Shown here piece by piece: positions 8,754-32,979 of a stretch of DNA of 43,477 nt. Both the position numbers and the translations under genes were made by a program. The stretch is from Deltaproteobacteria bacterium (GTDB taxonomy: Bacteria; Myxococcota_A; Polyangia; Polyangiales; JADJMO01). The DNA is taken from the NCBI GenBank assembly GCA_022843175.1, contig JALHOE010000052.1, positions 1 through 43,477 on the forward strand, written 5' to 3'. Under the pieces are notes generated by a model that was given only the letters and a program-made list of their open reading frames with translations, was not told where the DNA came from and searched no databases. Position 1 is the stretch's first letter, and each line of letters begins with the position of its first letter.

Positions 8754-9602
8754 TCACGGGAGCTCGAGCGAGGCCACCAACGCGAAGTGGTCGGACGCGA
8801 ACGCGCTCGTCACGCCGCCGGTGCGCGAGGGGCGGTGGCCGCGGAGGGGTCGGTCGAGGATCCGCGCCACGCTGCGTGGCCGCAGCCCGCGGACGAAGAT
8901 GTAGTCGAGCCGCTGGGTCGGCGAGGAGGGCTCGACCTCGTGGGCGAGGCTGTTGCGCTCGGGGTGCGGATCGAAGGTCGGGAGATCGTCGTGCGCGCCG
9001 AGGTCGTCGAAGCCCTCGAGCGTCTCGCGCAGCAGCGCGTAGTCCGCGCTCGCGCCCCCGAGGCCGTCGACGTTGAAGTCGCCGCAGACGATGAACGGGC
9101 GCTCGGCGCGCCGGATCTCGCGGACCGAGCGCGCGACCTCCGCGAGCTGCGCGGCGCGAATCCGCATCGACGCGGCGTCGTAGCCGGACTGCAGGTGCGC
9201 GTTGAGCACGTCGATCTCGACGCCGGACACCTCGATGCGCGCATGCAGCACGCCCTTGCGCGCGAAGCGGTCCCACCCGCTGCTCGGCGTGGCGAACGCG
9301 CGCACGGCGGTCGCGGCGATCGGGTGGTGCGCGGCGACGCCGAGGCCGCTGCCGCGGAGGGTGAGGGGCCACAGCTGGAGCCGGTTCGGGTCGTGCACAC
9401 GGACGCGGCAGAGCCCCTCGAAGAACGCCTGCGCGTCCGCGCTGAGGATCTCCTGCAAGCACACGATCTGCTGCCCCTCGAGCGCGCGCTTCACGTCCTC
9501 GTCGAGGAAGCGCGCTGCGTAGGGCGCGCGGCCGCCCACGAGCGCGTCGAACGGCCCCTGCGCCATCCCGAAGCAGTTCCACGTGGCGACCGAGACCAGC
9601 AT
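8754..9602 (-). CDS. Endonuclease/exonuclease/phosphatase (DNase I-fold) family hydrolase
   Basis: 282 residues from ATG at 9602. A GTG at 9626 is in frame but lies inside a hairpin stem with a T-run that looks like the upstream gene's terminator, so the shorter start is preferred. All hallmark residues are present in order: the Asn of TWNCFG, Glu of VCLQEI, His of LNAHLQ, Asp/Asn of CGDFNVDG, and the C-terminal SDHFALV. The fold is a Mg-dependent phosphodiesterase; the closest-looking subclass by motif spacing is neutral-sphingomyelinase/nuclease-like. The substrate (lipid head group, DNA or an inositol phosphate) cannot be told. There is no clear signal peptide. It abuts the lipoprotein on the other strand. 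Confidence 0.88.
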   Translation of the reverse strand: MLVSVATWNCFGMAQGPFDALVGGRAPYAARFLDEDVKRALEGQQIVCLQEILSADAQAFFEGLCRVRVHDPNRLQLWPLTLRGSGLGVAAHHPIAATAVRAFATPSSGWDRFARKGVLHARIEVSGVEIDVLNAHLQSGYDAASMRIRAAQLAEVARSVREIRRAERPFIVCGDFNVDGLGGASADYALLRETLEGFDDLGAHDDLPTFDPHPERNSLAHEVEPSSPTQRLDYIFVRGLRPRSVARILDRPLRGHRPSRTGGVTSAFASDHFALVASLELP

Positions 9603-9606
9603 GAGG

Positions 9607-9640
9607 AGACAAAAAGCATGACGCACCCGTGAAGGGTGCG
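9607..9640 (-). terminator. Rho-independent-like terminator of the lipoprotein gene
   Basis: On the minus strand, CGCACCC pairs with GGGTGCG (bases 9622-9640, 5-base loop), followed by TCATGC and a run of five T (9611-9615). It lies 26 bases beyond the stop of the gene at 9666-10148 and just before the ATG at 9602. Confidence 0.65.
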
Positions 9641-9665
9641 CCGGCTCCGCGCGAGGGCGAGCGTA

Positions 9666-10148
9666 TTACATGCCGCAGCGGCCGGACATGCGGCAGGTGC
9701 CGCAGCCCACGGCCGCGCACTGGGTGTTGGTGGTGCAGAGCACGGTGTTGCACACGACCGGCGCGTCGGGGACCGCGTCGATGGAGACGTCGGGGACGAT
9801 CACGTCCGGCCTGGTGTCGGTCGCGACGGCGGTGTCGGTGGCGACGGCTGTGTCGGTGGCGACGGCTGTGTCGGTGGCGACCGTGGTGTCGGTGGCGACG
9901 GCGGTGTCGCTCGCGTCGGCCGTGGGCGCGGAGTCGGCTCCACCCTCGCTCGGCGTGCCGGTGTCGCTCTCCGGCGTCTCGGACGCGGTGCCGGTGTCGT
10001 CCGTCGTCGACCCGGTGTCGCTGCTGCTCGTGCTGTCGGCGAGCGTCTCGCCTTCGCCCGTGTCGTCGGGCTCGAAGACGGTGGCCTCGTCGCCGCTGCA
10101 GGCGACCGTGGAGGAGGCAAGCAGGAGTGCCATAAGAATGTTGCGCAT
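9666..10148 (-). CDS. Lipoprotein with acidic Thr/Asp repeat linker and Cys-rich tail
   Basis: 160 residues. The lipobox is STVAC with Cys17. Residues about 20-75 are Asp/Thr/Ser/Glu-rich. Residues about 80-112 are a tandem repeat of A-T-D-T-A-V encoded by five 18-base units. The last 30 residues hold six Cys in C-x4-C...C-x4-C-G-x-C...C spacing, a small disulfide knob. The linker could span the envelope and display the knob. The start has TAGACT 7 bases upstream and no Shine-Dalgarno, and a hairpin plus T-run follows, so it is its own transcription unit. Function unknown. Confidence 0.85.
   Translation of the reverse strand: MRNILMALLLASSTVACSGDEATVFEPDDTGEGETLADSTSSSDTGSTTDDTGTASETPESDTGTPSEGGADSAPTADASDTAVATDTTVATDTAVATDTAVATDTAVATDTRPDVIVPDVSIDAVPDAPVVCNTVLCTTNTQCAAVGCGTCRMSGRCGM
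9814..9903. repeat. 18-base tandem repeat, five units, inside lipoprotein gene
   Basis: Units of the form GTGTCGGTGGCGACGGCT (plus-strand reading) start at 9814, 9832, 9850, 9868 and 9886. They encode the Ala-Thr-Asp-Thr-Ala-Val linker on the minus strand. Copies differ by only a few bases, so copy number may vary. Confidence 0.85.
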
Positions 10149-10155
10149 GGGCAAT

Positions 10156-10161
10156 AGTCTA
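10156..10161 (-). promoter_or_regulatory. Putative -10 element TAGACT, leaderless type
   Basis: Minus-strand TAGACT ends 7 bases before the ATG at 10148. It is identical in sequence and spacing to 7583-7588. Confidence 0.5.
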
Positions 10162-10222
10162 GCGGCGTCAACGCTCTTGTCGCGCTGAAAACGTGAAATG
10201 GTCGGGCCGAACGCGCGGAGCT

Positions 10223-11206
10223 CTACTCGACCTTGGTCTTCTCGTAGCCGAGCTCTGCGAGCTTGCGGTCGTCGTCGGCCCACGACTCCTCGACCCGCAC
10301 GAACAGCCCGAGATGGATGCGCCGGCCGAGGAGATCCTCGATGGCGCGCCGCGCGGCGGTGCCGATCTGCTTGATCTTGTCGCCGCCGGCGCCGATGACG
10401 ATCTTGCGCTGCGCCTCTTTGTCGACGTGGATCGTGGCCTCGATGCGGGTGACGGCCTTGGCCGAGGCCGGCTCCTCCCAGGCGTCGATCGTGACCGCGA
10501 TCGCGTAGGGGATCTCGTCGCGCGTCTGCAGGATGACCTGCTCGCGCACGCACTCCGCGGCGAGGAACCGCTCGGGGCGGTCGGTGATCTCGTCCTCGGG
10601 GAACAGGAACGGCCCCTCGGGCAGCTGCTTGCTGATCTCGTCGAGCAGGCGCTCGAGGCCGTTGGACGAGCCCTCGCCGCCCTTCGACGCGACGATCGGC
10701 ACGAAGGCCGCGAAGTCGTGCATCTTCTGGTAGCGCTCGAGGATCGGCATCAGCGCGGCCTTGTCCTTGATCCTGTCGACCTTGTTGAGCGCGAGGATGA
10801 CGCGGCCCTTGCCGATGGAGGCGACGCGCTCGAGCGTCTCGTCGCGCTCGATGCGGGGGTTGGCCTCGGCGACGTAGACGATCACGTCGGCGGCGCGCGC
10901 GGCCTCTTCGGCCTCGACGTTCATGTGCGCGCCGAGCTTGTTCTTGGGCGTGTGCAGCCCGGGCGTGTCGAGGAAGATGAGCTGGGCGGTGTCCCTCGTG
11001 AGCACCCCGAGGATCCGCTCGCGGGTGGTCTGCGGCTTGGGCGTGGCGATCGAGAGGCGAAAGCCGACGAGCGCGTTGACCAGCGTGGACTTGCCGACGT
11101 TGGGGCGGCCGACGATCGCGACCGTGCCGCAGCGGGTCTTGGGCTTCTTCGGCGCGGGACCGCCCGTGCCCGGACGGCGGTGCGACGACGAGAGCTGCTT
11201 CTTCAT
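10223..11206 (-). CDS. era: GTPase Era
   Basis: 327 residues. The GTP-binding motifs are all present: G1 GRPNVGKST (33-41), effector Thr60/61, G3 DTPG (80-83), G4 NKVD (141-144) and G5-like ASK (173-175). A C-terminal KH domain follows (about 240-327) with KIVIGAGGDKIKQIG. Era binds 16S rRNA and assists 30S assembly and cell-cycle progression. It is about 25 residues longer than the E. coli protein, due to a Lys/Pro/Gly-rich N-terminal extension. It starts 16 bases after the DUF1704 gene on the same strand and is likely the last gene of the xerD transcript. The link with these partners rather than rnc/recO is unusual. Confidence 0.96.
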   Translation of the reverse strand: MKKQLSSSHRRPGTGGPAPKKPKTRCGTVAIVGRPNVGKSTLVNALVGFRLSIATPKPQTTRERILGVLTRDTAQLIFLDTPGLHTPKNKLGAHMNVEAEEAARAADVIVYVAEANPRIERDETLERVASIGKGRVILALNKVDRIKDKAALMPILERYQKMHDFAAFVPIVASKGGEGSSNGLERLLDEISKQLPEGPFLFPEDEITDRPERFLAAECVREQVILQTRDEIPYAIAVTIDAWEEPASAKAVTRIEATIHVDKEAQRKIVIGAGGDKIKQIGTAARRAIEDLLGRRIHLGLFVRVEESWADDDRKLAELGYEKTKVE

Positions 11207-14508: not shown

Positions 14509-17211
14509 ATGGCCGCCCAACCGCCCCCGACCGAGGACCCGAAGATCGTCAACACAGCGGGCGGTTCCGCGCCGCCCGACGGTCCGGCCGGGAGCCCGCC
14601 GGCGCCGCCCCCTGGCGGGTCGTCGCGCGTGCCCGTCTCCATCGAGGAGGAGCTGCGCACCTCGTACCTCGACTACTCGATGTCGGTCATCATCGGGCGC
14701 GCGATCCCCGATGTCCGCGACGGCCTCAAGCCCGTCCACCGCCGCGTCCTCTACTCGATGCAGGAGCAGGGCATCCGGCAGAACGGGCCCCATCGCAAGT
14801 CGGCGCGCGTCGTCGGCGACGTGCTCGGCAAGTATCACCCGCACGGCGACCAGTCCGTCTACGACGCGCTCGCGCGCCTCGCGCAGCCGTGGTCGATGCG
14901 CTACCCGCTCATCGACGGCCAGGGAAACTTCGGCTCGGTCGACGGCGATCCGCCGGCCGCCATGCGTTACACCGAGGCCCGCCTGTCGCGCCTGTCGGCC
15001 GAGCTGGTGGCCGACATCGACAAGGACACCGTCGACTTCGTCCCCAACTTCGACGACAGCGAGCAAGAGCCGGCGGTCCTGCCGTGCAAGTTCCCCAACC
15101 TGCTCGTCAACGGCACCAACGGCATCGCCGTCGGCATGGCCACGAACATCCCGCCGCACAACCTCGGCGAGGTGATCGACGCCACGGTGCACCTCATCCG
15201 CAACCCCGAGTGTCAGGTCTTCGACCTGATGAAGTTCATCCCCGGCCCGGACTTCCCGACCGGCGGCTTCATCTACGGCGTCGAGGGCATTCGCCAGGCC
15301 TACCTCACCGGTCGCGGCCGCGTGCTCATGCGCGCGAAGACGGAGATCAAGAAGCTCGGAAAGGGCGACCGCGAGCAGATCGTGGTCACGGAGATCCCCT
15401 ATCAGGTCAACAAGTCCACGCTCGTCGCGAAGATCGCCGAGCTCATTCGCGAGAAGCGGATCGAGGGCGTCAGCAACGTCGAGGACCACAGCGACCGCAA
15501 CGGCATCTCGGTGGCCATCGAGCTCCGCAAGGACGCGATGCCCCAGGTCGTCCTCAATCAGCTCTACAAGATGACCGAGCTGCAGACGACGTTCGGCGTC
15601 ATCAACCTGGTGATCGTCGGCGGCCGTCCCCGCGTGCTCGACCTGAAGGAGACGCTCGCGGAGTTCGTCCACCACCGCCGCGAGGTCGTCACCCGCCGCA
15701 CGCGCTTCGAGCTCCGCCAAGCCGAGGCGCAGATCGAGATCGTCGAGGGCCTCGGCATGGCCCTCACCGAGCTCGATGTGGTGATCCAGACGATCCGTGC
15801 GGCCAAGGATCGTGACATCGCGCGCGAGGGCTTGATGAAGCTCCGCCTGCGCGGGCTCGAGCAGTTCGTGGCGCGCGCCGGCCGGCCGCAAGAAGAGATC
15901 GACGCGGCGAGGGCCAAGCCCGAGTACACGCTCAGCGAGCGTCAGGCCAACGCGATCCTCGACATGCGCCTCGCCCGCCTCACCGGGTTGGAGCGCGAGA
16001 AGCTCGAGGCCGAATACAACGAGCTCGCCAACGAGATCACGCGCCTCAAGGCGATCCTCGCGAGCGAGAAGCTCCTGCTCGACGTCATCGTCGGCGAGCT
16101 CGAGGGCATCAAGGCCGCCTACGCCGACGCGCGCCGCACCGAGATCGTCCCCGACGAGGCCGAGATCAACCTCGAGGACCTGATCGCCGAAGAGGACATG
16201 GTCGTCACCATCTCCCACGGCGGCTACGTCAAGCGCACGCCCGTCGCCACCTACCGCGCGCAGAAGCGCGGCGGCAAGGGCAAGCTCGGAATGGAGGCGC
16301 GCGACGAGGACTGGGTCACGCAGCTCTTCGTCGCGAGCACGCACGCCTACGTCTTCTTCTTCAGCGACCGCGGCAAGGTCTACGTCAAGAAGGTCTACGA
16401 GGTCCCGCTCGCCGCGCGCAACGCGAAGGGCAGGGCGATCGTGAACTTCGTCGGCATGGAGACGGGCGAGAAGGTCGCGGCCATCGTCGAGGTGCCCAAG
16501 ATCGAAGAGGGCAAGTTCATCGTCACGCTCACGCGCGGTGGCACCATCAAGAAAACCGAGGTCACCGAGTACGAGAACTTCCGCGAGAAGGGCATCATCG
16601 GCGTCAAGATCGAGGACGACGACCAGCTCCTCTACGCCGCCCTGACCGACGGCTCCCGCCAGATCATGATCGGCACCAAGGACGGCATGTCGATTCGCTT
16701 CCCCGAGGAGCAGGTCCGGTCGATGGGCCGCGGGTCCATCGGCGTGAAGGGCATCGAGCTCCGCGAGGGCGACCAGGTCGTCGGTCTCGCCATCACCGAA
16801 GAGGGCAGCGAGCAGGTGCTCGCGATCACCGAGCGCGGCTACGGCAAGCGCACCCACATCGAGCAGTTCCGCGAGCAGAAGCGCGGCGGCGTGGGCGTGG
16901 CGCTGATCGACACCGGCGAGCGCAACGGCCCGTGCATCGGCCTTCGCCTCGTGAACGAGCAGCACGAGATCATGCTCATCACCGACAAGGGCCAGACCAT
17001 CCGCACCCGCGTCTCCGAGGTCAAGGAGACGAAGGACCGCGGCGCCATGGGCGTGAAGGTGATGACCCTCGAGGACGCCGAGCGCGTGGTCGCGTTCGAG
17101 CGCGTCGCCGACAGCTCCGAGGAGATCGCCGGTGGCAGCGAGCCGCCCACCGAGGGCAGCGAGCCGCCCACCGAGGGCAGCGAGCCGCCCGAACCGGTCG
17201 GCGAGGCGTAG
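14509..17211 (+). CDS. gyrA: DNA gyrase subunit A
   Basis: 900 residues. Breakage-reunion domain motifs include [12 protein letters not shown] (68-79), the quinolone-pocket region GKYHPHGD (107-114), and catalytic Tyr154 in [10 protein letters not shown]. The GyrA-box QKRGGKG (585-591) in the six-bladed C-terminal domain separates it from ParC. The subunit cleaves and rejoins DNA and wraps it for negative supercoiling with GyrB, which is not in this window. Three oddities are visible: a Pro/Gly-rich 42-residue N-terminal extension, Gln115 where E. coli has Ser83 (Asp119 equals Asp87), and a C-terminal tail with a GSEPPTE repeat from two and a half 21-base units (17134-17190). A GTG at codon 41 would give the conventional short N-terminus, but the promoter position supports the ATG. 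Confidence 0.97.
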
Positions 17212-17224
17212 GGTCGAGGCGCGC

Positions 17225-18301
17225 GTGACCCGCAAGAGCAAACGGCCGGAGCGTACCGAGACCGATCAGAGCCTCCTCCGAGAGCGCGAGAAGACCGATC
17301 GCGAGATCGCGAGGATTTCGCCCAAGATCGAGGCTGCGGCCGATGAAGTGCTCGAGGTGGCGCGGCAGCGCGCCGAGGAGATGCTCGAGGTCGCGAGGGA
17401 CCGCGCCGACGCGACGCTCGAGCACGCCGCCGCGCCGACGACCGCGGTCGACGCGGTCGCGCGCGCGCGCTCGAGCGAGGACAGCACGCTGGAGAACGAG
17501 CGCCGGATCGCCGCCGAGGTCCTCGAGGCCGAGCGGGAGGCTCGGTCCCGGGCGCTTCGCGAGCTGCTCGGGTTGGAGCGCGAGGAGACCGACGAACGGC
17601 TCGAGCTCGAGCGTATCCGCGCCGACGATGTGGTCGCGTCACGCGACGACTTCCTCGGCATGGTCAGCCACGACCTACGCAACCTGCTCGGGGGTATCGC
17701 GCTCAGCGCGTCGGTGGTGCTCAAGCGCACCGCCGACGAGCCAACCAAGAACGAGGCAGCGCGCATTCAGCGATACACCGCGAAGATGACCCGCCTGGTG
17801 GGAGATCTCGTCGACGCGGTCAGCATGGAGGCGGGAAGGCTGAGCATCATCCCGAAGCCGCAAGACGCGGAGGGGCTGCTGCACGACGTCGTCGAGACCT
17901 TCCGCGGCCTCGCCGCCCCCAAGGGAATCACGATCACCCTGCAGCCTCTTCCCCCGCTCGAGCCGGTGTCGATGGACGTGGAGCGCATCCATCAGGTCCT
18001 CACGAACCTCCTCAGCAACGCACTCAAGTTCACCCCGCGGGGCGGCGCCGTCGAGGTCGTCGCCGCACCGGCTGGCGACCAGGTGCGCTTCTCGGTCCAC
18101 GACACCGGTCCCGGCATCGACCCCGAGTCGTCGACCAAGATCTTCGACCGCTTCTGGCAATCGGCCCCCGGCGATCGCCGCGGGCTCGGTCTCGGCCTCT
18201 ACATCTCGCGCAACATCGTCGAGGCCCACGGCGGAAAGATCTGGTTCGAGCCGCGCAAGGGCGGCGGAAGCAGTTTCCACTTCACGCTCCCCGTCGCGTG
18301 A
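17225..18301 (+). CDS. Histidine kinase with long coiled-coil N-terminus, no sensor domain
   Basis: 358 residues from GTG. Residues about 10-135 are a continuous Arg/Glu/Ala-rich helix, predicted coiled coil. HisKA follows with phospho-acceptor His149 in FLGMVSHDLRN. HATPase has the N box (LLSNALKF), G1 (DTGPGID), F box (FDRFW) and G2 (GLGLGLYISRNIV). There is no signal peptide, membrane helix, PAS or GAF, so it is a soluble kinase whose input comes through the coiled coil, by partner or oligomer. No response regulator is adjacent. It begins 13 bases after gyrA and may be cotranscribed. Its HATPase closely resembles that of the kinase at 21268, which suggests paralogy. Confidence 0.92.
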   Translation: MTRKSKRPERTETDQSLLREREKTDREIARISPKIEAAADEVLEVARQRAEEMLEVARDRADATLEHAAAPTTAVDAVARARSSEDSTLENERRIAAEVLEAEREARSRALRELLGLEREETDERLELERIRADDVVASRDDFLGMVSHDLRNLLGGIALSASVVLKRTADEPTKNEAARIQRYTAKMTRLVGDLVDAVSMEAGRLSIIPKPQDAEGLLHDVVETFRGLAAPKGITITLQPLPPLEPVSMDVERIHQVLTNLLSNALKFTPRGGAVEVVAAPAGDQVRFSVHDTGPGIDPESSTKIFDRFWQSAPGDRRGLGLGLYISRNIVEAHGGKIWFEPRKGGGSSFHFTLPVA

Positions 18302-19383: not shown

Positions 19384-19812
19384 ATGACCACCGTCGACCC
19401 GAACGATCACGGCGCGCAAGTCGACGCCTGGATGGCGCGAGCCACCGAGGGGCTGACGCCCGAGCAGCTCGTCGCCGCGGTCGACCAGGGCTTCTCGGCG
19501 TTGTGGCGTCGCGCTCACCAAACGCTCGGGGAGGTCACGCTCACCGCCATCGCGGACCGCGTGCTCCACAACGCCGCCGAGCTGCATCCGGCGCTCGCCG
19601 GCGTGGCGCTCGAGGGCGAGGGGCTGCGCTGCGACGACCTGCGCCACCGGGCAGCGAGCCTGCCCCGAGAGCAGCTCACCGCGGGGCTTCGGTTCGTTCT
19701 CGTCGAGTTCCTCACGGTCCTCGGCAACCTCACCGCAGAGATCCTCACGCCGGCGCTCCACGCGGAGCTCGCCGGGGTTTCGGGCAGGGATCGCGAGGAC
19801 GCGAAGTCATGA
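19384..19812 (+). CDS. Small helical protein, first gene of the KaiC operon
   Basis: 142 residues. Upstream in-frame codons reach 19306, but coding character and a short GCGGA Shine-Dalgarno favour the ATG at 19384. It is predicted nearly all-helical: amphipathic segments around DAWMARATEGLTPEQLVAAVDQGFSALWRRA and REQLTAGLRFVLVEFLTVLGNLTAEI, with no Cys, signal or membrane span. I do not recognise the family, and it resembles neither KaiA nor KaiB. Its stop overlaps the KaiC start as ATGA, so it is translated with KaiC and is a candidate partner or modulator. The 157-base gap before it contains an AT-richer patch (TACGTT, 19356-19361) that may hold the promoter. Confidence 0.82.
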   Translation: MTTVDPNDHGAQVDAWMARATEGLTPEQLVAAVDQGFSALWRRAHQTLGEVTLTAIADRVLHNAAELHPALAGVALEGEGLRCDDLRHRAASLPREQLTAGLRFVLVEFLTVLGNLTAEILTPALHAELAGVSGRDREDAKS

Positions 19813-21271
19813 GCACGAAGAAGCAAGACGACGGGCGCCTCGAGTTGGGTGTGCGCAACCTGGACGCGCTGTTCCAGCTGGGCGTGCCCGCGGGCTCGGC
19901 CATTGTTGTCTCCGGTCCTCCGGGCTCGGGCAAGACGATCCTCACCCAGCAGATCTGCTTTCACAACGCGACCGCGAAGCGCCCGGTCCTCTACTTCAGC
20001 ACGCTCTCCGAGCCCACGGCGAAGACCCTCCGATACCTCACGCAGTTCAGCTTCTTCGACGCCAAGCGGCTCAACACCGAGATCCACATGGCGGATCTCG
20101 GCGTGCTCCTCCGCACCAAGGGCCTCGAGGCGACCTCCGCGCTGATCATGCAAAAGATCAAGGAGTTCAAGCCCGGCGTCGTCGTCATCGACAGCTTCAA
20201 GGCGTTCGACGACCTCTCCAGTCGCGAGAGGAGCTGCGCAAGTTCTCCTACGCGCTCGCGGTCAACCTCATGGCCTGGGAGATCACCACGTTCCTCCTCG
20301 GCGAGTACGAGGAGCGCGACATCCACACGAGCCCGCTCTTCTCGATCGTCGACGGCCTCATCGTCCTCGGCCAGCACGAGCAATCGGGCGAGCACCAGCG
20401 GTTCATTCAGGTCGTCAAGATGCGTGGCACCGACCACGACCGCGACGAGCACCCGTTCCTCATCACGTCGAACGGCGTCGAGGTGTTCGCGCCGCGCGTG
20501 AGCATCCCCCGCAAGGACCTCGAGCTCGCGGGGGAGCGCTGCAAGACGGGCATCACCCAGCTCGATCTCCTGCTCGGCGAGGGCATCCCGCGCGGCTCGA
20601 GCCTGCTCATCTCGGGCGTGGCGGGCACCGGCAAGACGGTGCTCCTGCTCGAGTTCCTCTACCGCGGCGCGCTCGCCGGCGAGAAGGGGATCATCTTCTC
20701 GTTCGAGGAGACGGGCGAGCGCCTCCGCGCCGCGGCGCACGGGCTCGGGTGGGATCTCGAGAAGGAGATCGCGCGCGGGATGATCGAGATCGTCTTCATC
20801 CCGCAGCCCGAGATCATGATGGAGAGCCACCTCCTCATGATGCGCGAGCGCATCGAGGCGCTGAACGCGGAGCGCGTGGCGGTCGACTCCGTTTCGGTGT
20901 TCCTCCACAAGGTGAAGGATCCGCAGATCGCCCGCGAGAAGATCTTCCAGCTCGCGAGCATCGTGCAGAACCGTGGGGCGGTGGGCTTCTTCGCCACCGA
21001 CATCCCCTACGGCAAGAAGCAGCTCAGTCGCTTCGGGGTCGAGGAGACGGTCGTCGACGGCGTCGTCCTCCTCTCGGCGCCCGAAGAGGGCCTCGACCGC
21101 GTCCGGTACATCGAGGTCTACAAGCTCCGCAACACCGCCCACCTCAAGGGCCGGCACAGCATGGTCATCGGCCCCGGTGGGATCACGATCTACCCGCGCT
21201 ACCGCGCCGCGCGCGAGATCCCCGCGCGCGCCGTCCAGCCTGCGGCCAAGCGTCCGAAGAGGCGCAAATGA
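19809..21271 (+). CDS. KaiC-like double RecA-fold ATPase, frameshifted at about 20229
   Basis: About 486 residues if repaired (Synechococcus KaiC has 519). The first half has Walker A GPPGSGKT (36-43) and Walker B VVVID (123-127). The frame then breaks after DDLSSRE near base 20229. Removing two bases (AG, 20229-20230) restores E-L-R-K-F-S-Y-A-L-A-V and joins the second half, which has Walker A GVAGTGKT and the catalytic-type FEE. Unrepaired, the first frame runs to 20501 with nonsense, and a shorter product could start at ATG 20270. In the CI-type domain the Glu pair reads SEP, so one Glu is missing. By hand alignment the CII phosphosites Ser431/Thr432 read Glu/Thr (21044-21049). KaiC-like ATPases outside cyanobacteria act in signalling. 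It overlaps both neighbours as ATGA. Confidence 0.82.
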
Positions 21272-23151
21272 GCCCGCGGCCGGACGCGGAGGCGTCGAGC
21301 GCGGCGGCGACGCGCTCCCCGAGCGACGCGCACGAGGACGCTCGCGACCTCTCCGGGGACTCGCGCGGCCTGTGGTTCACGAAGCGCCTCCGCCGTCTCT
21401 ACGAGATCAGCGTCCTTCTCACGCTCTTCGAGAGCGTCGAGACCACGGTCCCCGCCGTCATCGCGCTGCTCGCCCAGGCGCTCCCCCTCCACAGCGCGAT
21501 CCTCATTCTCAACGAGGGCGACGGGAAGCATCGAACCATCGTGTGGCAGGCCGAGGGCGAGAGCGTCGCGCGGCTCACGGCGGCCAAGGCGCACGCCCGC
21601 GCGGCGCAGCGCTACCTCGCGCACTCCGAAGTGGACGCTGTGGGCGATTCGTCCGAGCTCCGCGCGTTGCCGCCGAGCGATGAGCGCGCACCGCAGGCGA
21701 CGACGAGGGTCGAGGGCAACTTCATCCACCTGCCGCTGGTGGTCGCGCGCCAGCCGGTCTTCGGCGCGCTTCAGCTCGAGGGCTCGAGCCCCTTCGACGA
21801 GCTCGACCTCATCTTCGTGAACGCGGTCGCCAACCAGATGGCGATCGCCATCGATCGCCAAGCGGTCATCAGCGCGAAGCAGGCGAGCGCAGAGGAGCGA
21901 GAGAGAGAGCAACACCTCCTCGCCGACGTGAGCGAGCTCGTCGGCTCCTCACCGGACTACCGCGATCGACTGGTGGCGTTGGCGCGCGCAGCCGTCCCCC
22001 GGTTCGCCGACCTGTGCCTCATCGACGAGGCCGCCGACGACGGCAGCTTCGAGCGCCGCGAGATCGTCTGGGCGGACGAGCCCAAAGCGCGCGACTCCTC
22101 CGAACGCCTGCGCGAGATCTCGCTCGGCTCCGAGCTGCGCGCCGCGGCGCTCGAGTCCGGCAAGCCGCTCCTCGTCGGCACGCTCGATGCGCTGCGCACC
22201 CGGGCCATTGCCTCCGCCGAGGAGGTCGAGGTCTTCGGTGCTCTCGGGATCACCTCGCTGATGTTGCTTCCGCTGGTCGCGCGTGGGCAGACCCTTGGCG
22301 TGCTCACGTTCGCCACCACCGAGCCGAGCCAGCCCTACACCACGGACGATCTGGGGTTCGCCGGCGAGCTCGCGCGGCGATCCGCGATCGCGCTCGACAA
22401 CGCGCGGCTCTACGAGCAGGCCAAGCGGGCCACCCTCGCCCGCGACAACCTGCTCGCGCTCGTCTCGCACGATCTGCGAAACCCGCTCGGCGTGATCCTC
22501 ATGCACCTGTCGCTCATGAGGTCGCACCCCGCCGACGCGCTCCCGCGCGGGCCGCTCGAGGTGATGGAGCGCGCGGCGAAGCGCATGCACCGCCTGATCG
22601 ACGACCTGCTCCAGACGGCGAGCATCGAGGCGGGGCGCCTCTCGATCGAGCCCCGGCGACTCGCGCTCGCTCCGCTCGTCGCCGAGGCGGTCGAGGCGCT
22701 CCAGCTGCAGGCGGCCGCCAAGTCCCTCCACCTGGTCAACGAGGTGCCGGCGGAGCTTCCGGCCGTCGAGGCCGACGGCCCGCGGCTCCAGCAGGTGCTC
22801 GCGAACCTCCTCGGGAACGCCGTCAAGTTCACGCCGCCCGACGGAACGATCACCATCCGCAGCGCGGTGGCCGACGACGAGGTCACGGTCTCCATCGCGG
22901 ACACCGGGCCGGGGATCGCCGAGGACGAGCTCGCCCACATCTTCGACCGCTTCTGGCAGGCCCGCCGCACCGCGCGTCTCGGCACCGGTCTCGGCCTGTT
23001 CATCGTGAAGGGCATCGTCGAGTCCCATCGCGGAAGAGTCTGGGTCGAGAGCAAGCCCGGCGAGGGGAGCACCTTCTCGTTCACGGTCCCGGTGTCGAAG
23101 CGGACGACCGAGAACTACCGCGCGTCGCAGCGCGGGCCGGCGCGCGAGTAA
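21268..23151 (+). CDS. Cytoplasmic histidine kinase with two GAF domains
   Basis: 627 residues. The ATG overlaps the KaiC stop (ATGA). A disordered charged N-terminus covers about 1-30. Two GAF-type domains follow, about 45-205 (LHSAILILNEGD, FGALQLEG, VNAVANQMAIAID) and about 225-375 (FADLCLIDEA, GITSLMLLPLVARGQTLGVLTF). HisKA carries His401 in LLALVSHDLRNPLG, and HATPase has LLGNAVKF, DTGPGIAEDE, FDRFWQA and GTGLGLFIVKGIV. No membrane segment or receiver is present. It probably autophosphorylates in response to small ligands or redox and to KaiC state. No response regulator is encoded nearby, so its target lies elsewhere. Stand-alone KaiC plus a GAF or PAS kinase is a recurrent non-cyanobacterial pairing. 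Confidence 0.94.
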   Translation: MSPRPDAEASSAAATRSPSDAHEDARDLSGDSRGLWFTKRLRRLYEISVLLTLFESVETTVPAVIALLAQALPLHSAILILNEGDGKHRTIVWQAEGESVARLTAAKAHARAAQRYLAHSEVDAVGDSSELRALPPSDERAPQATTRVEGNFIHLPLVVARQPVFGALQLEGSSPFDELDLIFVNAVANQMAIAIDRQAVISAKQASAEEREREQHLLADVSELVGSSPDYRDRLVALARAAVPRFADLCLIDEAADDGSFERREIVWADEPKARDSSERLREISLGSELRAAALESGKPLLVGTLDALRTRAIASAEEVEVFGALGITSLMLLPLVARGQTLGVLTFATTEPSQPYTTDDLGFAGELARRSAIALDNARLYEQAKRATLARDNLLALVSHDLRNPLGVILMHLSLMRSHPADALPRGPLEVMERAAKRMHRLIDDLLQTASIEAGRLSIEPRRLALAPLVAEAVEALQLQAAAKSLHLVNEVPAELPAVEADGPRLQQVLANLLGNAVKFTPPDGTITIRSAVADDEVTVSIADTGPGIAEDELAHIFDRFWQARRTARLGTGLGLFIVKGIVESHRGRVWVESKPGEGSTFSFTVPVSKRTTENYRASQRGPARE

Positions 23152-29727: not shown

Positions 29728-32700
29728 ATGTCGCGAACTCTCGGCGCTTCGACTCTCGTCTTCTTCGCCTCGGCGTGCAGCGGACCGAGCGAGCAACCCG
29801 GTAACCTGCGACCTTCGGCGAGCGCGCCGGTCACGCAGGATGCGTCCGGTGGCGACGCGGATCTCACTGCGTTCGACGCCGGCCTCCCTCCGCCGCCCAC
29901 GTGCACCAAGCGAACGTGCGCCGACGAGGGCGCCAACTGCGGACCGGTCGCAGATGGGTGCGGCGGGCTCACCGAGAGCTGCGGCACCTGCGCGGCGGGA
30001 ACGGTGTGCGGAGGCGGCGGGATCGCGAGCCGCTGCGGAACGACCATCGGTGACGGCGGCGGGTGCATCCCGCGCACCTGCGAGAAGGCCGGCGCCAACT
30101 GCGGACCGATCGGCGACGGCTGCGGGGGCGTCATCGATTGCGGGAAGTGCAGCGGCGACCGCACCTGCGGCGGCGGCGGCACGCCGAGCGTGTGCGGGGT
30201 GAGCTACGTCCCGCCGGACGGCGGCGCCCTCGGCGACGGCGGCACCTGCGTGAAGCGGACGTGCGCCGAGCAGGGAGCGAACTGCGGACCGGTCGGCGAC
30301 GGCTGCGGCGGCACCGTCGAGTGCGGCACCTGCACCAACCCCGGCGAGATCTGCGGAGGCACCACGCCGAGCGTGTGCGGGAGCCCGTTCGGCGACAGCG
30401 CCGGCTGCACGCCGCGCACGTGCGCCGACGTCGGCGCGAACTGCGGACCGATCGGGGACGGCTGCGGCGGCCTGCTGGAGTGCGGCACCTGCAGCGCGCC
30501 GAACATCTGCGGCGGCGGCGGGAAGCCGAGCGTGTGCGGCAACGCCTACGGCAGCTGCACGCCGAAGACGTGCGCCGACTACCCCGGCGCGACATGCGGA
30601 CAGCTCGCCGACGGGTGCGGTGGACTCACGGCGAGCTGCGGCACCTGCGCGTCGCCGACGATCTGCGGCGGCGGCGGGACGCCCAACGTGTGCGGCAACT
30701 CGTTCGGCGCGTGCAAGCCCCAGACGTGCGCCGACCTCGGAGCCAACTGCGGGCTGATCGGAGACGGATGCGGCGGCACCGCGAGCTGCGGGACCTGCAC
30801 GGCGCCCGACATCTGCGGCGGCGCGGGCGTGCCGAGCAAGTGCGGCGGCAGCGGCGGCGTGGTGCCCGGTTGCACCGATCCCCTGTGCGCGAAGATCCCG
30901 ATCTGCACCACCGGCGAGACGACCATCGAGGGTACGGTCTACGCGCCGAACGGCGTGCAGCCGCTCTACAACGCGGTCGTCTACATCCCCAAGGGGACGG
31001 TGGCTCCGTTCGGCGACGTGATCTCGTGCGATCGTTGCGACACGCCGCGCCCGGCGCTCGCGTCCGCGGTCACGGGCCCGGACGGCCGGTTCAAGCTCAC
31101 GGGCGCGCTGCCCGCGGGCCCCAACATCCCGCTCGTGATCGAGCTCGGTCGCTGGCGGCGCTATGTGACGATCCCCAACGTCTCGGCGTGCGTGAGCAAC
31201 CCGGAGCCGGCCACGCTCACCCGAATGCCGCGGCGACAGGCCGAGGGCCACGCGCTCGACAACATCCCGCGCATGGCGATGACCACCGGCAACGTCGACG
31301 CGATGGAGTGCGTGCTCCGCAAGATGGGGCTCGAGGACTCGGTGTTCGCCAACCCGACGTTCGCCGACGCCTCGAAGCGCATCCACTTCTACCGCGACAA
31401 CGGCGCAGCCTTCAGCGCGAGCACCCCGTCGTGGACGGCGCTCGCCGACGACCCGACGGCGATGCGCAAATACGACGCGATCATCTACGCGTGCCGTGGC
31501 AGCGAGGGCACCGCCCGGTCGAGCGCACGGAAGGACGCGCTCCGCGCCTACGCCAACGAGGGCGGCCGCGTCTTCGCCACGCACTACAGCTATATGTGGC
31601 TCTTCGACAACGACAACTGGGCGACGTCGGCGAGCTGGGTGCGCGACGGCGGCCCGGCGACGTCGAGCAACACCGTGCCGCTGGTGAGCGACGTGAACAC
31701 CAGCTTCCCGAAGGGGCTCGCGTTCTCGCAGTGGTTGTCGCTCGTCGGCGCGCTCTCGTCGACCACCCCGCCGCGGGTCGACATCCTCGCGTCGCGCAAG
31801 GACGTCACCGCGGCGCTCTCGCCGGCGCTCCCGTGGATCACCTCGGACAGCCCGAAGACCGCGCAGCACATGACGTTCAACACGCCGTTCAAGGGCGCGA
31901 CGTCCTCTCTCTGCGGCCGGGTGCTGTTCAGCGACTTCCACGTCACCAACGCGTCGACCGACGGCAAGACCTTCCCCGCCGAGTGTGCGGGTGGGGATCT
32001 GACCGCGCAGGAGAAGGTCCTCGAGTTCATGCTCTTCGACCTCGCGTCGTGCGTGAACGGCGACAACCTCCCGCCCCCTCCGCCGCCCACGTGCACGCCC
32101 AAGACGTGCGCCGACGCCGGCGCGAAGTGCGGCCAGGTCGCGAACGGCTGCGGCGGGCTCACGCCGAGCTGCGGCACCTGCCCCGCCGGCGAGACGTGCG
32201 GCGGCGGAGGCAAGCCCGGCGTGTGCGGTGGGCCGACGTGCACGCCCGTGACCTGCGTCGCCCTCGGCTACGAGTGCGGGCTCGCGGGCGACGGGTGCGG
32301 CGGGAGTCTGAGCTGCGGCGTCTGCACCGTGCCCGGCGAGACGTGCGGCAGCGGCGGCGTGCCCGGCAAGTGCGGCGGTCCGAAGTGCACTCCCCAGACG
32401 TGCGCCTCGACGTCGACGATGTGCGGATGGATCGGCGACGGCTGCGGAGGCAAGAGCTACTGCGGCGACTGCGTGGCGCCCGACATCTGCGGCGGCGGCG
32501 GCGTGGCGGGGAAATGCGGCTCGCCGAAGTGCACGCCGCGCACGTGCGCCGCGACGAGCACGACCTGCGGTTGGATCGGCGACGGCTGCGGCGGCAAGAC
32601 GTTCTGCGGCGACTGCCTCACCGCCGGAGAGACGTGCGGCGGGAGCGGGCTCGCGGGCGTGTGCGGAAAGCCGGGGACGACCCCGTGCAAGCCGCGCACG

Positions 32701-32979
32701 TGCGTCGAGCTCGGGCTCGCGTGCGGCCCGGGGGGAGACGGTTGCGGCAACCTCATCGACTGTGGCGTGTGTGTCGCTCCCGAGACCTGCGGCGGCTCCG
32801 GCGTCGCCGGAGTTTGCGGTGCGCCAAAGTGCACGCCGACGACCTGCGTGGCGCTCGGCTTTGCGTGCGGGCTCGCGGCGGACGGGTGCGGCGGGAGTCT
32901 CGATTGCGGAACGTGCGTGGCTCCCTCCACGTGCGGCGGCGACGGAGTGGCGCATCAGTGCAGCGTGCTGCCGCGCTGA
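29728..32979 (+). CDS. Giant Cys-rich repeat lipoprotein around a carboxypeptidase-regulatory/amidotransferase-like core
   Basis: 1083 residues. A G-run Shine-Dalgarno (29714-29720) precedes the ATG. The lipobox is ASAC with Cys17. Six repeats (about 59-375) and six more (about 788-1080) share the eight-Cys pattern C-x4-C-x5/6-C-x6-C-x4/5-C-x2-C-x4/5-C-x7/8-C, with the core D-G-C-G-G. Between them lie a roughly 80-residue carboxypeptidase-regulatory-like beta domain (TIEGTVYAPNG...VTGPDGRFKLTGALP) and a roughly 280-residue alpha/beta domain with YDAIIYACRGSE and EGGRVFATHYSYMWLF, resembling ThuA/class-I-amidotransferase folds, though no Cys nucleophile is evident. The likely location is the cell surface. 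The repeats may be disulfide-rich binding or spacing modules. No function is established. Confidence 0.93.
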   Translation: MSRTLGASTLVFFASACSGPSEQPGNLRPSASAPVTQDASGGDADLTAFDAGLPPPPTCTKRTCADEGANCGPVADGCGGLTESCGTCAAGTVCGGGGIASRCGTTIGDGGGCIPRTCEKAGANCGPIGDGCGGVIDCGKCSGDRTCGGGGTPSVCGVSYVPPDGGALGDGGTCVKRTCAEQGANCGPVGDGCGGTVECGTCTNPGEICGGTTPSVCGSPFGDSAGCTPRTCADVGANCGPIGDGCGGLLECGTCSAPNICGGGGKPSVCGNAYGSCTPKTCADYPGATCGQLADGCGGLTASCGTCASPTICGGGGTPNVCGNSFGACKPQTCADLGANCGLIGDGCGGTASCGTCTAPDICGGAGVPSKCGGSGGVVPGCTDPLCAKIPICTTGETTIEGTVYAPNGVQPLYNAVVYIPKGTVAPFGDVISCDRCDTPRPALASAVTGPDGRFKLTGALPAGPNIPLVIELGRWRRYVTIPNVSACVSNPEPATLTRMPRRQAEGHALDNIPRMAMTTGNVDAMECVLRKMGLEDSVFANPTFADASKRIHFYRDNGAAFSASTPSWTALADDPTAMRKYDAIIYACRGSEGTARSSARKDALRAYANEGGRVFATHYSYMWLFDNDNWATSASWVRDGGPATSSNTVPLVSDVNTSFPKGLAFSQWLSLVGALSSTTPPRVDILASRKDVTAALSPALPWITSDSPKTAQHMTFNTPFKGATSSLCGRVLFSDFHVTNASTDGKTFPAECAGGDLTAQEKVLEFMLFDLASCVNGDNLPPPPPPTCTPKTCADAGAKCGQVANGCGGLTPSCGTCPAGETCGGGGKPGVCGGPTCTPVTCVALGYECGLAGDGCGGSLSCGVCTVPGETCGSGGVPGKCGGPKCTPQTCASTSTMCGWIGDGCGGKSYCGDCVAPDICGGGGVAGKCGSPKCTPRTCAATSTTCGWIGDGCGGKTFCGDCLTAGETCGGSGLAGVCGKPGTTPCKPRTCVELGLACGPGGDGCGNLIDCGVCVAPETCGGSGVAGVCGAPKCTPTTCVALGFACGLAADGCGGSLDCGTCVAPSTCGGDGVAHQCSVLPR

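Follow-up and report, generated by a model that had tools for sequence, protein, structure and literature searches.

Organization of the operon

KaiC homologues are common outside cyanobacteria, where KaiA is missing and KaiB is often missing too. Which protein then connects such an ATPase with the histidine kinase encoded next to it? The question is raised by a three-gene operon on the plus strand of the 43,477 nt of DNA that are called the window here. The first gene (19384..19812) encodes a small protein of 142 aa, the second is KaiC-like and is read in two parts (19809..20222 and 20225..21271), and the third (21268..23151) encodes a soluble histidine kinase of 627 aa. In line with the initial annotation, which had described a trio joined by ATGA overlaps, both overlaps are present, at 19809 between the small gene and the KaiC-like gene and at 21268 between the latter and the kinase gene. 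The conservation of the order small gene, KaiC gene, kinase gene across loci (see below) shows that this arrangement is beyond chance. A promoter scan gave no match.

According to Pfam, the kinase has the domain order GAF-GAF-HisKA-HATPase_c, and with HisKA at 55.6 bits and HATPase_c at 113.4 bits it has a histidine kinase core. Its earlier description as a soluble kinase with two GAF domains is thus borne out. A response regulator had been said to be absent from the vicinity, and indeed none was found by Pfam among the window genes scanned (about 4500-40200). The reported absence of KaiA and KaiB stands for the operon, and the KaiA profile PF07688 had no match in the whole source genome or in any small protein scanned, but KaiB is encoded elsewhere in the genome.

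Two genes upstream of the trio (17210-18301), a further soluble histidine kinase is encoded, in which no sensor domain was recognised, and a similar kinase is also found upstream of the operon in the locus L021. At 29728-32979 the window contains a large ORF without Pfam match, with imperfect repeat arrays at 30258-30846 (159 bases) and 32186-32642 (144 bases).

The KaiC-like gene is interrupted and lacks the CII domain

The KaiC-like gene had been annotated as a single gene, but it is not one open frame. The reading passes from the frame 19809 to about 20222 into the frame 20225 to 21271, with the loss of one base near 20220-20224 (frameshift feature 20218..20226, plus strand). In a GC frame plot the change of frame falls at this position as well (about 20222). 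All relatives read at this position are in frame, and their two codons there correspond to five bases in the window, from which we conclude that one base is missing in the window. Of the residues that are invariant in eleven relatives, 41 of 43 are kept before the break and 126 of 129 after it. Since they are kept on both sides, either selection acted on the gene until a very recent date or the assembly is in error. The source genome is a draft assembly of 470 contigs, and an assembly error and a very recent mutation are both plausible.

In every complete gene with an aligned C-terminus, the KaiC of the relatives has three KaiC domains and about 710-730 residues; the KaiC of L029 runs off its contig and is not counted among the complete ones. 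A single stretch of alignment (E 2e-63) pairs domains 2 and 3 with CI and CII of cyanobacterial KaiC, while domain 1 is an extra N-terminal KaiC domain with the motif TLSE instead of the usual FEE. In the window, the 5’ part of the gene encodes the first part of domain 1 with the Walker A motif GPPGSGKT, and the 3’ part encodes the end of domain 1 and the CI-like domain 2, with the Walker A motif GVAGTGKT, the FEE motif and a basic tail. The window KaiC thus consists of domains 1 and 2 only, and the description as a CI-CII double ATPase does not apply. The basic tail resembles those of some relatives and the overlap with the kinase gene is kept, so that the C-terminus has the appearance expected after domain 3 has been lost in frame. 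A fragment on contig C9 of the same genome was considered as the missing CII and rejected, as it is only a short KaiC-like piece.

The CII domain of KaiC is the seat of the autokinase and of the phosphosites. Because of the frameshift and the loss of CII, autophosphorylation of the KaiC type is not expected of the window copy, and a phosphorylation time course, which had been proposed as a check, would be uninformative for this protein. In domain 3 of the relatives, Ser is found at the position equivalent to S431 and Pro or Ala at that of T432 (numbering via the alignment with cyanobacterial KaiC). Thus, neither the window copy, without CII, nor the relatives have the CII with S431 and T432 of a clock KaiC. 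The profile scores agree with membership in the wider family: PF06745 (gathering cut-off 26.6) matches the 5’ piece with 48.8 bits, the 3’ piece in two stretches with 234.6 bits and an intact relative with 444.5 bits. The intact relative P0001 passes PRK09302 (451.6 bits, cut-off 408) and stays with 376.3 bits below the cut-off of 546 of TIGR02655, the equivalog for circadian clock KaiC, with which the 5’ piece of the window scores 31.5 bits. Bacterial KaiCs almost always have about 500 residues (PMC5520375), and KaiC homologues of 470-514 residues are given for M. xanthus and M. macrosporus in PMC11832031. The three-domain KaiC of the relatives is unusual in comparison.

The small protein belongs to no named family

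The small protein has no Pfam match, and with NCBIfam only one negligible match was obtained. Its AlphaFold2 model is a confident single domain (pLDDT 89.5) composed of helices and one short beta-hairpin. Thus, the initial annotation was right in assigning it to no recognised family, while its description as all-helical has to be changed to mostly helical, as predicted. An alignment of 14 family members has 31 invariant columns. The small family gave nothing below E 0.19 when compared with sequence profiles of the PDB, and a Foldseek search of the PDB with the model gave no match at E 0.001 or better. The best VIA-align hits (Z 6.0; an apolipophorin and the HIV capsid) were rejected, since this value is within the range for unrelated helical proteins. 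A likeness to the C-terminal domain of KaiA or to the N-terminal domain of RsbU was also considered and had no support in any comparison. No KaiA chain was among the PDB sequence matches of the family at E 10 or less. The C-terminal helical bundle of KaiA was not among the chains re-aligned to the model, which is a statement about this list and leaves room for a likeness in fold. As for KaiB, there is no match to PF07689, and the predicted helices with one hairpin differ from the thioredoxin-like KaiB fold.

The small gene precedes kaiC in two distant branches

Whole-genome and contig searches yielded a close family of 20 loci including the window, and in 19 of them the small gene directly precedes a KaiC gene. 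In most of these loci the KaiC gene is followed by a homologous histidine kinase gene. The hosts are Myxococcota and metagenome-assembled genomes (MAGs) labelled Gammaproteobacteria, Proteobacteria, Gemmatimonadetes and Cyanobacteria.

A search with KaiC as query revealed a remote branch of small ORFs upstream of further KaiC genes, mostly overlapping or abutting kaiC. These ORFs have almost no pairwise similarity to the small protein of the window. A profile-profile comparison of the two branches aligned 124 columns with a probability of 95.5 (E 1.4e-8, score 54.9); in the controls for this score, 100 column shuffles reached at most 15.5 and the reversed alignment 19.6. The remote alignment alone, used as query, also recovers the close homologue G002 at E 8e-5. 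Among 24 matches to the remote alignment, 21 have KaiC as the next gene, two have none (L108 and L114) and one is at a contig end, corresponding to 21 of 23 testable loci; because the ORFs of the branch had been taken from the position in front of KaiC genes, this search is not independent of KaiC, and the matches outside its build are the fairer test. Seen from the KaiC side, the gene upstream belonged to the small family in at least 20 of 30 loci (20 of 29 testable), with a receiver domain in five, another gene in four and a contig cut in one, these counts being lower bounds because a limited number of candidates was scored per genome. Taken together, the association between the small gene and kaiC is strong across about 40 loci. 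In L080, L083, L084, L085 and L087, a lone receiver domain gene lies directly upstream of kaiC, as if the upstream slot were interchangeable.

The remote branch is also present on plasmids of Alpha- and Betaproteobacteria. On Caballeronia and Paracoccus plasmids, the small gene carries the annotation ‘hypothetical protein’ and is immediately followed by an ‘ATPase domain-containing protein’ which matches KaiC. The two genes overlap on the Caballeronia plasmid, and the Paracoccus plasmid (L125, NZ_CP040765.1) carries a set of small gene, KaiC, kinase and response regulator genes flanked by insertion sequences. A plasmid search with the small protein of the window itself as query gave no match.

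Whether the small gene always precedes kaiC had been proposed as a check. This is the case for the large majority of loci in both branches, but there are exceptions without adjoining KaiC, namely L030 (Gemmatimonadetes), L108 and L114 (both Myxococcota), and L123 (a Polaromonas plasmid). An occurrence independent of kaiC, which had been named as a refutation of the partnership, is thus seen in a minority of the loci. In L114 the small gene is followed by a receiver-kinase gene. In L030 the small domain is joined in frame to the N-terminus of a kinase; this locus is a 3.8-kb contig, and a search of the MAG from which it comes (3.2 Mb) gave no match to KaiC.

Two loci deviate in their structure. 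In L026 (G080 C15, 3528-8909), the order is helical gene, KaiC gene, second close-branch helical gene, KaiC gene (474 aa), single-domain KaiC gene (254 aa) and a gene for a V4R-domain protein. In L035 (9067-11040, Myxococcales MAG UBA2376), the central part of the operon is inverted, from within kaiC to within the kinase gene; the ends show no strong inverted repeats, and this could be a misassembly or a plain inversion.

The small protein diverges together with KaiC

In 15 close-branch operons, the distances between the small proteins correlate with those between the KaiC proteins with r 0.945, and none of 1000 label shuffles gave a value as high. For the small protein and the kinase in the same operons the correlation is 0.33, a rough value since the kinase set mixes architectures and some of its members are truncated or wrong. 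For the small protein and KaiC, co-inheritance by itself could produce such a correlation. The sensory part of the kinase differs among the operons, where GAF, PAS or no recognised domain was found by eye. The small protein and KaiC thus form the constant core of the cassette, and the sensory part of the kinase is variable.

Comparison with known Kai systems

Three kaiC gene contexts, often with adjoining kinases, are described in PMC3164672, and no helical gene upstream of kaiC is mentioned in the accessible part of this work. In its first context, the kaiBC-histidine kinase operons, a KaiC-type ATPase likewise stands beside a small partner gene and a histidine kinase. There, however, the partner is KaiB, while here it is helical and without sequence relationship to KaiB; KaiC is extended by an N-terminal domain, and the window copy has no CII. 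The source genome itself contains an operon of that kind on contig C104: an intact two-domain KaiC (9500-10867, open frame of 530 aa; L009, L024) is directly preceded by a KaiB gene (PF07689, 82.7 bits) and has a histidine kinase beside it. Thus, two kinds of KaiC operon coexist in this genome. In the second context, represented by Rta_04330/Rta_04340 of Ramlibacter, KaiC is likewise followed by a dedicated kinase without KaiB in the operon. The KaiC-binding module proposed there is the N-terminal domain of the kinase, whereas in our operons the candidate is a separate gene before kaiC and is fused to the kinase only in L030.

The cyanobacterial SasA is likewise a soluble kinase of a KaiC system. 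The best NCBIfam match of the window kinase is PRK09303, the SasA model, but it extends over the kinase core and the score of 186 is below the cut-off of 342. SasA has a KaiB-like N-terminal domain; instead, the window kinase has two GAF domains and no match to PF07689. It was considered very unlikely that KaiC stimulates SasA homologues outside cyanobacteria, because these are without a KaiB-like domain (PMC5520375). For myxobacteria, multiple kaiC genes, no kaiA and few kaiB were reported, and the accessible part of this work mentions neither three-domain forms nor a helical partner and states that KaiC modulators are yet to be identified (PMC11832031). The links between KaiC and its output outside cyanobacteria are not known according to PMC5520375 and PMC11832031. 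KaiC-kinase cassettes as such are already known. What is added here, as judged from the open-access literature, is a cassette with an undescribed partner family and, in the relatives, a three-domain KaiC.

A putative adaptor between KaiC and the kinase

Based on these data, we suggest that the operon is a KaiC signalling cassette in which the helical protein is a KaiC-binding adaptor between the ATPase state and the kinase, a reading to which we assign a probability of somewhat below 0.6. The helical protein would bind the KaiC ring, probably at the N-terminal or CI-like domains, and as adaptor or regulator would couple the ATPase state of KaiC to the cognate kinase, which in turn may phosphorylate a response regulator encoded elsewhere. 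The data themselves show the conserved gene order, the coupling by overlaps, the correlated divergence of the small protein and KaiC, the loss of a domain and one natural fusion to the kinase; physical binding, the direction of signalling and the output are inferred. In other kaiC operons of these bacteria, the slot of the small gene is held by KaiB or a lone receiver. This position, together with the divergence that follows KaiC and the fusion to a kinase in L030, makes an adaptor the most economical reading. The fusion at the kinase N-terminus is at the place of the KaiC-binding domain of SasA. The initial annotation had offered two guesses, a substitute for KaiA/KaiB or a transmitter of the ATPase state to the kinase, and as judged from sequence the latter remains the better half. 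Its view that the first gene encodes an undescribed partner is supported by the association with kaiC, the shared divergence and the lack of a named family; in all probability the small protein is a so far undescribed partner of KaiC.

It could be argued that the small protein belongs primarily to the kinase, as a detached sensor or dimer domain, with KaiC as an optional third member which perhaps acts on the kinase independently. The fusion in L030, whose genome has no KaiC match, and the pair of small gene and receiver-kinase in L114 point in this direction. We nevertheless regard this as unlikely, since the divergence of the small protein tracks KaiC and not the kinase, the sensory part of the kinase varies while the pair of small protein and KaiC stays, and the L030 evidence comes from a short contig of a MAG. 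Still much less probable is that the small protein does the job of KaiA and stimulates the KaiC autokinase via CII. KaiA was not found in the genome, and according to PMC11832031 there is none in myxobacteria; further, domain 3 of the relatives is CII-like and has kept the Ser at the S431 position. However, neither the KaiA profile nor a structure-sequence comparison gave a match, the T432 position is Pro or Ala, and the window retains the small gene although CII, the target of KaiA, is gone, the last being a weak argument because this copy may be failing.

Decay of the window copy has to be considered as well. The one-base frameshift and the loss of CII would fit an operon in which KaiC is a recent pseudogene without function in the source organism, which would be compatible with the adaptor model for the family. 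This is rather doubtful, since 95-98 percent of the residues invariant in the relatives are still present before and after the break, the loss of domain 3 has left the frame, the basic tail and the ATGA overlap intact, and a base error is plausible in a draft of this kind. Even so, the window cassette may be inactive, its KaiC gene being interrupted. Finally, the shortness of the small gene and its overlap with the following start codon might suggest an unrelated neighbour or a translational leader, but its invariant columns, the confident predicted fold and the same gene position in remote lineages have already largely refuted this idea, and we give it hardly any credence.

If the adaptor reading holds for the family as a whole, the helical proteins could, next to KaiA and KaiB, form a third class of KaiC regulators, which would read the KaiC ring and drive cognate kinases without a KaiB-like domain, as part of a Kai-type signalling or timing module of Myxococcota and Proteobacteria that is partly plasmid-borne. 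We put this forward as a tentative proposal, for which the odds are at present somewhat unfavourable. In any case, a helical protein encoded before kaiC and once fused to a kinase is a concrete candidate for the link between KaiC and the kinase.
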